From contig JAVEDU010000035.1 of the NCBI GenBank assembly GCA_030840805.1, positions 1 through 64,000 on the forward strand: a stretch of DNA of 64,000 nt. Direction: 5' to 3'. The notes below the pieces were generated by a model. The model worked only from the letters and a program-made list of their open reading frames with translations. It did no database searches and was not told where the DNA came from. Within the stretch, counting starts at the first letter, position 1. Every line of letters starts with the position of its first letter. The DNA comes from Actinomycetota bacterium. GTDB taxonomy: Bacteria > Actinomycetota > Actinomycetes > Mycobacteriales > HKI-0501. The translations under genes and the position numbers were made by a program. Of the stretch, positions 26,644-30,239 are shown piece by piece.

Positions 26644-27354
26644 GTGCATCACCGGAAGCCTGTCGGACGGCATGTGGGGCGCCATCGCGCTCCGCTGGAC
26701 GTTCGCAGTCGGTATGCCGTCGTGGTCACGACCGCGGTCGTCGGCGCCGGTGTCGTCGCGTTCGGCGCGAGTTCCGCGCTGCCGACGGTCAATGCCCGTG
26801 ACGCCGCGGCCCTCGGCGCCGGTGGCGCCGGGTCGCCGCACGGTGCCGCCCTGGCGAACTCCGGTGGCAACCTGACCCAGGCCCGCACCGCGACCTCGGA
26901 GCGCGCCTCCCGTGCACAGACCCGCGTCGCCGCTCCCAAGCCGGCGCCGGGCTGGGCCCGCCCCGCGAACAGCCCGCTGAGCTCGACGTTCGGGCCGCGC
27001 TGGGGCACGTTCCACTACGGCATCGACTTCGCCGCCGCGTTCGGCTCGGTCGTCCACGCCGCCCACGCCGGCGTCGTCGTGAAGGCGGGCTGGTACGGCG
27101 GGTACGGCAACATCGTGATCATCGACCACGGGAACGGCGTCACCACCCGGTACGGGCACAACTCGAAGGTCCTCGTCCGGGTCGGCGAGCGCGTCCGGGC
27201 CGGACAGGACATCTCGCTCGTCGGCAGCACCGGCGACTCGACCGGCCCGCACTGCCACTTCGAGGTCCGTATCGACGACGTGGCGATCAACCCGATCCCG
27301 TACCTGCTGGTCCGCGGTATCGACCTGCGGCAGAACTACAACCCCACGCTCTAG
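26644..27354 (+). CDS. M23 family (LytM-type) metallopeptidase
   Basis: A 236-residue exported peptidoglycan endopeptidase. A basic N-terminus is followed by a membrane or signal segment (about 26-46), then an Ala-rich linker and the M23 domain from about residue 115. Zinc ligands are in HYGIDF (HxxxD) and HCHFEV (HxH) near the end; GHNSKVLVRVGERV is the typical middle segment. I chose GTG 26644, which has a GAAGGG ribosome site. Its TAG shares bases with the convergent pcrA stop. Confidence 0.88.
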   Translation: MHHRKPVGRHVGRHRAPLDVRSRYAVVVTTAVVGAGVVAFGASSALPTVNARDAAALGAGGAGSPHGAALANSGGNLTQARTATSERASRAQTRVAAPKPAPGWARPANSPLSSTFGPRWGTFHYGIDFAAAFGSVVHAAHAGVVVKAGWYGGYGNIVIIDHGNGVTTRYGHNSKVLVRVGERVRAGQDISLVGSTGDSTGPHCHFEVRIDDVAINPIPYLLVRGIDLRQNYNPTL

Positions 27355-29672
27355 AGCTTCTGGATCGGCGCGTACCGCAGGAGCAGCCACTTCCGCCCGG
27401 TGCCCGCCCCGAAGTCGACCTCGGCCTGCTGCTTCTCGGCGGTGCCGCGCAACCCCACCACGCTGCCCATCCCGAACGTGTCGTGGGTGACCCGGTCTCC
27501 CACGTCGAGCACCGGCACGTCCCGGGCCCCGGACACCGAGGCGCGCCGCGACGGGGCGAACGAGGACGAGGTGACCCGCTCCTGCGCGCTGCCGGTACCG
27601 CTCCAGCGCGACATCGTCTCCCGGGTCGGCTCCTCGCGTTCCCAGGCCAGCAGCGACCCGGGGATCTCGTCGAGGAACCGCGACGGCGGGTTGTACTGCG
27701 GCTGCCCCCAGGCGGCACGGGTGACCGCGCGGGACAGGTAGAGCCGCTCCCGCGCACGGGTGATCCCCACGTACGCCAGCCGACGCTCCTCCTCCAGCTC
27801 CTTGGCGTCCCCGAGCGAGCGCAGGTGCGGGAACACCCCGTCCTCCATCCCGGTGAGGAACACGACCGGGAACTCCAGGCCCTTCGCGGTGTGCAGGGTC
27901 ATCAGCGTGACGACGCCCGCGTCCTCGCCGGACGGGTCCGGGATGCTGTCCGCGTCGGCCACCAGCGCGACCTGCTCCAGGAACGCGGCGAGCGTGGCCG
28001 GCTCACCGGTGAGCGCCATCCGCTCCTCGAACTCCCGGGCCACGCTGACCAGTTCCTGCAGGTTCTCCACCCGGCCCTCGTCCTGCGGGTCGGTGCTGGC
28101 CTCCAGCTCGGCGACGTACCCGGTGCGGGCCAGCGTCTCCTCCAGCACGGCGCTCGGCGTCTCGGTCTCGGCGAGCTCCCGCAGCGACGCCATCATCGTC
28201 GTGAAGTCCCCGATGGACTTGACCGCCCGGGTCCCGATGCCGGGCGCCTCGGCGCAGCGTTCCAGCGCCGCCGCGAACGAGATCCGCTCCCGGCTCGACA
28301 GCGCCTCCACGCACGCCTCGGCGCGGTCGCCGATGCCCCGGCGCGGGGTGTTCAGCACCCGCCGCACACTGACCGTGTCGTCGGAGTTCGCGATGGCGCG
28401 CAGGTACCCCAGCGCGTCCCGCACCTCCCGGCGCTCGTAGAACCGCACGCCGCCGACCACCTTGTACGGCAGACCGACCCGGATGAAGACCTCCTCGAAC
28501 ACCCGGGACTGTGCGTTGGTGCGGTAGAAGATCGCGACGTCGCCGGGGCGCGCGTCCCTGGTGTCGGTGAGCCGGTCGACCTCACCCGCGACCCAGGCGG
28601 CCTCGTCGTGCTCGTTGTCCGCGACGTACGCGTGGATGGGCTCGCCGTCGCCCTGGTCCGACCACAGGTTCTTCGGCTTGCGCTCGGTGTTCCGGGTGAT
28701 CACCGCGTTCGCGGCCGACAGGATCGTCTGGGTGGAGCGGTAGTTCTGCTCCAGCAGGATCGTGGTGGCGTCCGGGTAGTCCCGCTCGAACTCCAGGATG
28801 TTCCGGATCGTCGCGCCGCGGAACGCGTAGATCGACTGGTCGGCATCGCCCACCACGCACAGCTCGCCCGGGGGCACGACGCCGTCGGCGGGGCCGGTCA
28901 GCTCCCGCACCAGCGTGTACTGGGCGTGGTTGGTGTCCTGGTACTCGTCCACGAGGACGTGCCGGAACCGCCGCCGGTAGTGCTCCGCCACCGCGGGGAA
29001 CGCCTGCAGCAGGTGGACGGTCGTCATGATGATGTCGTCGAAGTCCAGCGCGTGCGCCTCGGCGAGCCGGCGCTGGTAGAGCGTGTACGCCTCGGCGAGG
29101 ATCCGCTGGTTGCCGTCGCTCGCCTGACGGGTGAACGTCTCCGGGTCGATCAGCTCGTTCTTCAGGTTGCTGACCTGGGCGACCAGGCCGCGCGGCGGGA
29201 ACCGCTTGGGGTCGATGTCCAGCTCGCGGGCGACCAGTGTCATCAGCCGCCGGGAGTCGTCCGCGTCGTAGATCGAGAACGTGCTCTTGAGCCCCGCGGT
29301 CTTGGCCTCGGCACGGAGGATCCGCACGCAGGCCGAGTGGAACGTCGACACCCACATCGCCCGGGCCCGGGCGCCGACCAGCGCGGCCACCCGCTCCTTC
29401 ATCTCGCCCGCGGCCTTGTTGGTGAACGTGATCGCGAGGATCTCGCCGGGCTGCGCGCCGCGCTCGCCCAGCAGGTACGCGATGCGGTGGGTCAGCACCC
29501 GCGTCTTGCCCGACCCGGCGCCGGCCACGATGAGCAGCGGCGCCCCGTGGTGGACCACCGCGGCGCGCTGGGAGTCGTTCAGCCCCTCCAGCAGCTGCGC
29601 GGGATCGAGGGCGCGCCGCCGCGGCGGTGCGTCGGAGGGGGCGGGCTCGGGCAGCTCGAAAAGGGTGCTCAT
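27351..29672 (-). CDS. pcrA: ATP-dependent DNA helicase PcrA/UvrD
   Basis: A 773-residue superfamily 1A helicase acting in repair and replication restart. It has the Q motif LNDSQRAAV near 30, Walker A GAGSGKTRV near 51, DEYQDTNHAQ (Walker B), QNYRSTQTI, TLHTAKGLEFPVVF, and YVGITRARERLYLSR. The C-terminal 60 residues form a Tudor-like, RNA polymerase-binding type tail (DTFGMGSVVGL to LLLRYAPIQKL). ATG 29672. The stop overlaps the M23 stop within the tetranucleotide CTAG at 27351-27354. Confidence 0.96.
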   Translation of the reverse strand: MSTLFELPEPAPSDAPPRRRALDPAQLLEGLNDSQRAAVVHHGAPLLIVAGAGSGKTRVLTHRIAYLLGERGAQPGEILAITFTNKAAGEMKERVAALVGARARAMWVSTFHSACVRILRAEAKTAGLKSTFSIYDADDSRRLMTLVARELDIDPKRFPPRGLVAQVSNLKNELIDPETFTRQASDGNQRILAEAYTLYQRRLAEAHALDFDDIIMTTVHLLQAFPAVAEHYRRRFRHVLVDEYQDTNHAQYTLVRELTGPADGVVPPGELCVVGDADQSIYAFRGATIRNILEFERDYPDATTILLEQNYRSTQTILSAANAVITRNTERKPKNLWSDQGDGEPIHAYVADNEHDEAAWVAGEVDRLTDTRDARPGDVAIFYRTNAQSRVFEEVFIRVGLPYKVVGGVRFYERREVRDALGYLRAIANSDDTVSVRRVLNTPRRGIGDRAEACVEALSSRERISFAAALERCAEAPGIGTRAVKSIGDFTTMMASLRELAETETPSAVLEETLARTGYVAELEASTDPQDEGRVENLQELVSVAREFEERMALTGEPATLAAFLEQVALVADADSIPDPSGEDAGVVTLMTLHTAKGLEFPVVFLTGMEDGVFPHLRSLGDAKELEEERRLAYVGITRARERLYLSRAVTRAAWGQPQYNPPSRFLDEIPGSLLAWEREEPTRETMSRWSGTGSAQERVTSSSFAPSRRASVSGARDVPVLDVGDRVTHDTFGMGSVVGLRGTAEKQQAEVDFGAGTGRKWLLLRYAPIQKL

Positions 29673-29734
29673 GGCGAGGAAGAGTCTAGGCCCCGGTCGG
29701 ACATCTGTTCGACCGCGGATACCGCCTCCTTCCG

Positions 29735-29788
29735 GTGATCACCACCGCTTTTTCGGCGTCGGAGCACCGAAAGTGCGGTGGTGATCAC
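29735..29788. repeat. Palindromic repeat family B, copy 1
   Basis: Arms GTGATCACCACCGC (29735-29748) and GCGGTGGTGATCAC (29775-29788) are exact complements, with an inner stem TTTCGG (29751-29756) and CCGAAA (29767-29772). It shares its plan with the element at 63748 but not its outer sequence beyond TGATCAC. It lies between the divergent pcrA and leader-peptide genes, ending 32 bases before the leader start. Confidence 0.8.
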
Positions 29789-29808
29789 GAGAGGGGGCCG
29801 CGGCGTGG

Positions 29809-29814
29809 CACACT
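29809..29814 (+). promoter_or_regulatory. -10 element for the leader peptide transcript
   Basis: CACACT ends six bases before GTG 29821, with no Shine-Dalgarno between, so the leader peptide would be translated from a leaderless mRNA. The -35 position falls inside the right arm of the family B palindrome and does not match consensus. Confidence 0.4.
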
Positions 29815-29820
29815 GAGACC

Positions 29821-29877
29821 GTGACGCGCCGCTCGTACGAGTTTTTCTACGGTTACCGGTCCCCGGCAACCGTCTGA
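29821..29877 (+). CDS. Aromatic leader peptide of the chorismate mutase attenuator
   Basis: An 18-codon reading frame, GTG to TGA, encoding MTRRSYEFFYGYRSPATV. Five of the eight residues 5-12 are Tyr or Phe, far above background for this GC-rich genome. Its last third overlaps a pause-type hairpin and it is followed by a terminator hairpin and then the chorismate mutase gene. I infer ribosome-mediated attenuation: scarcity of charged tRNA-Tyr or tRNA-Phe stalls the ribosome and lets transcription proceed. No experimental support is visible from sequence. Confidence 0.72.
   Translation: MTRRSYEFFYGYRSPATV
29851..29871 (+). promoter_or_regulatory. Pause or 1:2 hairpin of the attenuator
   Basis: The bases GGTT-A-CCGG-TCC-CCGG-C-AACC pair symmetrically (4 bp, A-C mismatch, 4 bp, 3-base loop) over codons 11-17 of the leader peptide. 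The inner CCCGG can alternatively pair with CCGGG in the left arm of the terminator at 29896, giving an antiterminator. Confidence 0.55.
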
Positions 29878-29895
29878 GCGCGCACCCCTCACCAG

Positions 29896-29921
29896 ACGCC
29901 CCGGGCACCGGCCCGGGGCGT
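29896..29921 (+). terminator. Attenuator terminator hairpin
   Basis: Arms ACGCCCCGGGC (29896-29906) and GCCCGGGGCGT (29911-29921) pair perfectly around ACCG, followed by TTCGTCGTC. The hairpin lies between the leader peptide stop (29877) and the chorismate mutase start (29970), so it would act as a conditional terminator. Confidence 0.75.
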
Positions 29922-29969
29922 TTCGTCGTCTCGGGACCGGGTCGGGGCCAGAGCCCGCAGGAGCACACC

Positions 29970-30239
29970 ATGACCGTCCAGAGCGGCACCGACACGGCAG
30001 CCGAACGCGTCGACGCCCTCCGCCGGCGCATCGACGAGGTCGACGCCGCCCTCATCGCGCTGTGGCAGGAACGCGCCGAGCTCAGCGGCGAGGTCGGAAA
30101 GGCGCGGATGGCCGCCGGCGGCACGCGGCTCGTGCTCGCCCGCGAGCAGGCGATCCTCGACCGGTACCGCGAGTCCCTCGGCGCGGACGGCACCCGGCTC
30201 GCGATGCTGGTCCTGCGGGCGGGACGCGGCTCCCTCTAG
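29970..30239 (+). CDS. Chorismate mutase (AroQ class)
   Basis: An 89-residue all-alpha chorismate mutase converting chorismate to prephenate, the branch point to Phe and Tyr. The AroQ fold is shown by VDALRRRIDEVDAALIAL, the catalytic Arg/Lys (RRR, KAR) and the C-terminal ARE and REQAILDRYR-like helices. ATG 29970 has AGGAG at the right distance. Upstream lies an aromatic leader peptide and terminator, which fits control by Phe and Tyr supply. It lacks a prephenate dehydratase or DAHP synthase fusion. Confidence 0.9.
   Translation: MTVQSGTDTAAERVDALRRRIDEVDAALIALWQERAELSGEVGKARMAAGGTRLVLAREQAILDRYRESLGADGTRLAMLVLRAGRGSL

Follow-up and report, generated by a model that had tools for sequence, protein, structure and literature searches.

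A candidate ribosome-mediated attenuator with phenylalanine and tyrosine codons upstream of actinobacterial chorismate mutase genes

The window analyzed here, a stretch of 64,000 nucleotides taken at its full length, encodes an 89-aa chorismate mutase of the M. tuberculosis Rv0948c kind, divergent from a pcrA/uvrD helicase gene. Rv0948c is its best solved relative (E 1.1e-20), which together with the Pfam CM_2 match identifies the gene as one that makes phenylalanine and tyrosine. Between the two genes lie a short leader ORF of 18 codons, starting with GTG at 29821 and ending with a stop codon at 29875-29877, and a set of overlapping RNA helices, arranged as follows.

27351-29672, minus strand: divergent neighbor pcrA/uvrD
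29809-29814, plus strand: -10 element CACACT (within GTGGCACACT), 6 nt 5' of the leader GTG, from the sequence
29821-29877, plus strand: leader peptide ORF MTRRSYEFFYGYRSPATV, GTG start, TGA stop, predicted to be leaderless from reading of the sequence
29836-29856, plus strand: sensor codons TAC GAG TTT TTC TAC GGT TAC (Tyr6, Phe8, Phe9, Tyr10, Tyr12)
29849-29873, plus strand: leader hairpin P1, ACGGUU.CCGG-UCC-CCGG.AACCGU, fold -12.9 kcal/mol
29856-29866, plus strand: 5' strand of antiterminator P2a, CCGGUCCCCGG, partner 29901-29911, from covariation and duplex energy
29871-29876, plus strand: 5' strand of P2b (upper tier of the antiterminator), CGUCUG, overlapping the stop codon, from complementarity shuffles
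29893-29898, plus strand: 3' strand of P2b, CAGACG, overlapping the base of terminator P3, from complementarity shuffles
29896-29921, plus strand: intrinsic terminator P3, 11-bp perfect stem, loop ACCG, weak U-tract, -25.6 kcal/mol
29901-29911, plus strand: 3' strand of P2a, CCGGGCACCGG, inside the P3 5' arm and loop, mutually exclusive with P3
29959-29963, plus strand: Shine-Dalgarno sequence AGGAG of chorismate mutase, from reading of the sequence
29970-30239, plus strand: chorismate mutase, 89 aa (Pfam CM_2, E 2.3e-10)

The leader ORF reads GTG ACG CGC CGC TCG TAC GAG TTT TTC TAC GGT TAC CGG TCC CCG GCA ACC GTC TGA, and five of the seven codons in its sensor stretch encode Tyr or Phe, forming a cluster of codons for the end products of the downstream pathway. 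This Tyr/Phe-rich frame, picked out in an earlier sequence-only reading, was confirmed and proved to be the sole ORF with at least four F/Y per eight residues among 774 short ORF readings (8-40 aa, ATG, GTG or TTG starts, both strands of the window). The -10 element that had been placed six bases upstream was also found as CACACT, and its spacing from the GTG predicts a leaderless message, with transcription probably starting at or next to the start codon. Its conserved spacing lends indirect support to transcription and translation of the leader. The same geometry recurred in relatives, where a -10-like hexamer (mostly CATACT, CAGACT or CACACT) lay 6 or 7 nt 5' of the start in 79 of 86 leaders, a somewhat generous figure because the start codon was picked to suit such spacing where several were possible.

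Folding enlarged the RNA structure that had been described for this region. The leader hairpin, reported as 4+4 bp, was present and larger than claimed, with 10 bp and one A.C mismatch in P1. The 11-bp perfect terminator hairpin between the leader stop and chorismate mutase was found as described (arms 29896-29906 and 29911-29921), followed by a weak U-tract, UUUCGU (UUUCGUCGUC); P3 is absent from the terminator scan list, whose cut-off is at least 5 T in 8. Pairing of the leader CCCGG with the left arm of the terminator also existed, though its extent had been understated: P2a joins CCGGUcCCCGG (29856-29866) to CCGGGcACCGG (29901-29911) through 10 of 11 pairs, and P2b (CGUCUG/CAGACG) additionally joins the end of the leader to bases just 5' of the terminator. 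The leader-terminator region was more stable than shuffled folds (z = -3.0). In equilibrium folds P3 outcompeted the antiterminator even with the leader masked, so any switch between them must be co-transcriptional or kinetic, as in other attenuators.

A search of 250 genomes from the order found chorismate mutase in 234, and upstream sequence was read for 92 order-level loci (L001-L092; L003 and L033 come from one genome, and close Micromonospora-like relatives are numerous). At 86 of the 92 loci, in ten families, a leader ORF was recognized by its core, F-[FY]-Y-G-x-[RG]-x-P-x-x-V, or by an obvious variant, for example as MHSQHTRFFYGVRASAAVD in the same family and as VFGQRFYFYYGTGSPAAVGRA, VLDMQRRFFYGYRSAVPVV and VQHHAYRFFYGIRTPAPVIA in other relatives. 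In a scan of named genomes that was essentially restricted to Micromonosporaceae, 77 of 80 chorismate mutase loci carried the leader. The element also occurred in further families of the class and in actinobacteria at greater distance, including Streptomyces-like genomes (genus inferred); one family, with a chorismate mutase very similar to Rv0948c, probably represents Mycobacteriaceae. In most rows the Tyr codon and the terminator were ~50-57 nt apart, as measured by a simple stem finder that took the wrong stem in some of them. Alignment of these upstream regions, which the sequence-only reading had put forward as its main check, showed the aromatic codons and all hairpins to be conserved with compensatory changes, supporting the claim of an attenuation architecture.

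Several lineages departed from this pattern. The leaders of family f16 (L046, L048, L052, L055, L091) have shrunk to F-x-Y-G, as in VLSQREFAYGHRDPVAVSPS, keeping the RNA helices and few sensor codons. Some genera of family f7 have no Phe/Tyr leader, and in L071 and L078 (genus g20 of that family) its place is taken by a different candidate leaderless ORF, which reads MVCPFVKQPLRLCAQRDHSPGT in L071, together with a hairpin resembling a terminator. The three named Micromonosporaceae loci without a recognized leader were L131, L133 and L206, the last being a second copy in Actinoplanes italicus.

Codon usage within the leaders was strongly biased. Among 78 distinct chorismate mutase leaders, position -2 was TTT in 71 and position 0 encoded Tyr in 76; none contained Trp. 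TTT accounted for 93 of 158 leader Phe codons, whereas five long genes of the window use it for 0 of their 56 Phe codons. The leader Phe codons lie outside paired stems, and RNA structure therefore does not explain them.

Covariation of P1, P3 and P2a was counted in an alignment of 44 sequences (A1). Cells were paired at 86% in P1 and 88% in P3, with double changes at 4 and 3 pairs, respectively; together the two helices held 59 double-change cells, a number matched by 0 of 500 shuffles, which like all covariation and complementarity shuffles used here correct only partly for relatedness, and slid registers reached at most 52%. At P1 pair 15-37 (CG 41, UA 3), a synonymous change of Tyr TAC to TAT was accompanied by G to A on the opposite arm. 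P2a, pairing leader columns 24-31 with terminator columns 83-90, was 88% paired with 22 double-change cells, again matched by 0 of 500 shuffles, and the next best register reached 66%. Since its columns are common to P1 and P3, P2a excludes both, showing that leader hairpin, antiterminator and terminator covary, overlap and are mutually exclusive. Pair 18-34 extends this pattern to a silent position, where the last base of the Gly codon and its partner six codons later change together (GGG with C in 20 of 21 and U in 1 of 21; GGC with G in 16 of 19).

The two strands of the antiterminator also matched each other within families. The P2a duplex was -20.2 kcal/mol with its own arm versus a mean of -14.9 kcal/mol with the arms of other families, and duplexes between leader and own terminator arm averaged -18.7 versus -16.7 kcal/mol for between-family swaps, 1% of which were as good. 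A bulge is tolerated in the terminator of lineage f14, where the match to the leader arm (GGACUCCGG/CCGGAGUCC) is still perfect. P2b, CGUCUG/CAGACG in the window, takes the form CGUAGGUC/GACCUACG in Micromonosporaceae and CGUGAC/GUCACG or CGUAG/CUACG elsewhere, and its own complementarity across 64 sequences exceeded that of every one of 5000 shuffles; when shuffling was confined to families, 3 of 5000 were not exceeded. As P2b overlaps the stop codon in the window, a ribosome finishing the leader would have to open the antiterminator.

We built a covariance model (R2) from order-level chorismate mutase leaders only, with no DAHP synthase leader in training. R2 scored the window, itself a training sequence, at 75.4 bits (E 4.9e-17), and under strict filters matched 78 of the 297 genomes sampled from the class and 54 of 396 from the phylum. 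All 36 matches fetched at E<=1e-3, a set that includes one training sequence (L099) and excludes the window's own match, preceded target genes: 24 chorismate mutase and 12 DAHP synthase. The source genome itself carries a second attenuator (G000:C92:6666-6778, L094; R2 29.8 bits, E 2.5e-4), in which a leaderless W/Y leader, MQRWYGYLLTTPGDLRSPWLLPR (MQRWYGYLL...), with a -10 element TAGACT is followed by a terminator and then by the gene for a DAHP synthase that carries a ferredoxin-like domain (Pfam DAHP_synth_1, E 1.4e-76). The element had been viewed as a single one; it is real, and in fact belongs to a large conserved family with this second copy before DAHP synthase.

DAHP synthase leaders read MQQRFFWYGYRPGFPRRLVALH or MRFWYGYFRPPG... 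in relatives and MSRSFGFWFFYGGRRPA in distant genomes, and all 17 clear ones contained Trp (8 from order-level relatives, 9 among R2 matches in distant genomes). Together with the lack of Trp before chorismate mutase, this shows that leader composition matches the pathway branch. Most other order-level DAHP synthase loci gave no clear leader when the upstream sequence was read. One weaker candidate before DAHP synthase (L219, VPRFEYADRS...) includes F and Y but lacks Trp.

We consider it highly probable that the element upstream of chorismate mutase is a ribosome-mediated transcription attenuator that places the gene under control of charged tRNA-Phe and tRNA-Tyr. This reading draws on sequence, conservation, covariation and gene context, from which we infer the start site, stalling, termination and amino acid response. 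Transcription would begin at or next to the leader GTG. When Phe and Tyr are plentiful, the ribosome would reach the UGA and cover and open the leader-side strands of P2a and P2b, the two parts of the antiterminator, allowing P3 to form and halting transcription before chorismate mutase. When Phe-tRNA or Tyr-tRNA is scarce, the ribosome would instead stall on UUU UUC UAC and mask the 5' arm of P1, leaving the P2 strand free to capture the emerging 5' arm of P3 so that RNA polymerase continues past the terminator site. If the leader were not translated, both P1 and P3 would form and transcription would end. Points against this reading are the weak U-tract, the lineages with F-x-Y-G only and the f7 genera without a leader.

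The weak U-tract would also fit a different role for leader translation, in which it shields the RNA from Rho or alters access to the chorismate mutase start while the hairpins are secondary, and mycobacterial uORFs with such effects have been reported. However, nearly all relatives have a covarying GC-rich hairpin 5' of the gene, and the partner of the antiterminator is the terminator arm, not the Shine-Dalgarno sequence, making translation-coupled or Rho-dependent control unlikely. Conservation across families of residues past the sensor raises another alternative, that the peptide core F-Y-G-x-[RG]-x-P-x-x-V, and not hungry codons, stalls the ribosome as a nascent chain sensing a metabolite or stress. 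Much of this conservation is explained by RNA pairing: through pair 18-34, the +7 residue (P, A, S or T) follows the base at the silent third position of the Gly codon, which favors an RNA constraint over an arrest peptide. The Trp, Phe and Tyr content of the leaders tracks the pathway as well, and we regard nascent-chain arrest as very unlikely. In a GC-rich genome hairpins are common and the terminator alone would be unremarkable, as if it ended some other transcription next to a chance ORF whose peptide has no role; the uniqueness of the ORF in the window, the codons conserved outside stems and the mutually exclusive covarying helices contradict this explanation, leaving it a negligible chance.

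Taking transcription attenuation as the preferred reading, we lean toward a single homologous, actinobacteria-wide attenuator family that acts at both gates of the aromatic amino acid pathway and has its sensor codons adapted to each one: Trp together with Phe and/or Tyr at DAHP synthase, the entry step, and Phe/Tyr only at chorismate mutase, the Phe/Tyr branch. The two leaders in one genome offer a clean natural comparison in which sensor codons are matched to each gene's place in the pathway. The family also gives a testable account of Phe/Tyr branch regulation, a pathway that also feeds natural products, in many actinomycetes, with mycobacteria and the antibiotic producers Streptomyces and Micromonospora apparently among them. 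The covariance model could be used to annotate a regulatory RNA that lacks any Rfam family: searching the window against Rfam gave no family at its gathering score, T-box or other, and only sub-threshold noise, the best of it on an unrelated inverted repeat.

Systems of this kind have long been known. In E. coli pheL-pheA, a Phe-rich leader and alternative hairpins precede a gene with chorismate mutase activity; pheL is a proteobacterial, Shine-Dalgarno-led leader with Phe codons only, and its target is a fused chorismate mutase-prephenate dehydratase. Compared by description, the window element is like pheL-pheA in its Phe codons, alternative hairpins and chorismate mutase target, and unlike it in its predicted leaderless start and Tyr codons. 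Among actinobacteria, the aroR leader of C. glutamicum is reportedly leaderless. The aroR leader (F-Y-F) precedes aroF, encoding DAHP synthase, and is reported to respond to Phe and not to Tyr (Neshat et al. 2014; PMC11802643; PMC4046766); the pheL attenuator of E. coli is mentioned there too (PMC11802643). It is an experimentally supported precedent for an actinobacterial aromatic attenuator (PMC11802643). As described there, aroR and the window element are alike in being actinobacterial aromatic leader peptides before an aromatic pathway gene, with a response to Phe limitation reported for aroR; they differ in that aroR targets DAHP synthase and reportedly lacks a Tyr response whereas the window element targets chorismate mutase and combines a conserved F-Y-G core with an antiterminator of two tiers.

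The leaderless leader peptides of Streptomyces (trpL, leuL, ilvL and others) form a related group of short leaderless ORFs with end-product codons, some with terminators, and the list of eight in S. lividans includes no Phe/Tyr member and no chorismate mutase element (PMC8079986). An earlier survey reported that Actinobacteria showed no conserved RNA element for Phe or Tyr (Seliverstov et al. 2005, PMC1262725). It also cites S. coelicolor ilvB, where mutation of the candidate codons made no difference (PMC1262725), so such an architecture does not guarantee classical attenuation. Our literature search, with partial journal coverage, turned up no actinobacterial attenuator described for chorismate mutase, and the chorismate mutase element family appears to be undescribed.

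The region between pcrA and the leader promoter holds further features. An imperfect inverted repeat with 34-nt arms and a perfect core (GTGATCACCACCGC/GCGGTGGTGATCAC) occupies 29723-29800; it was not seen in the two same-family relatives and is a possible operator. In a search of a plasmid collection, long matches fell on the helicase gene. A LexA-like box (CGGACATCTGTTCG) lies at ~29699-29712, upstream of the divergent pcrA, and same-family relatives carry TGAACACACGTTCG and CGGACACACGTTCG near the equivalent position, conservation that suggests putative SOS control of the PcrA helicase.
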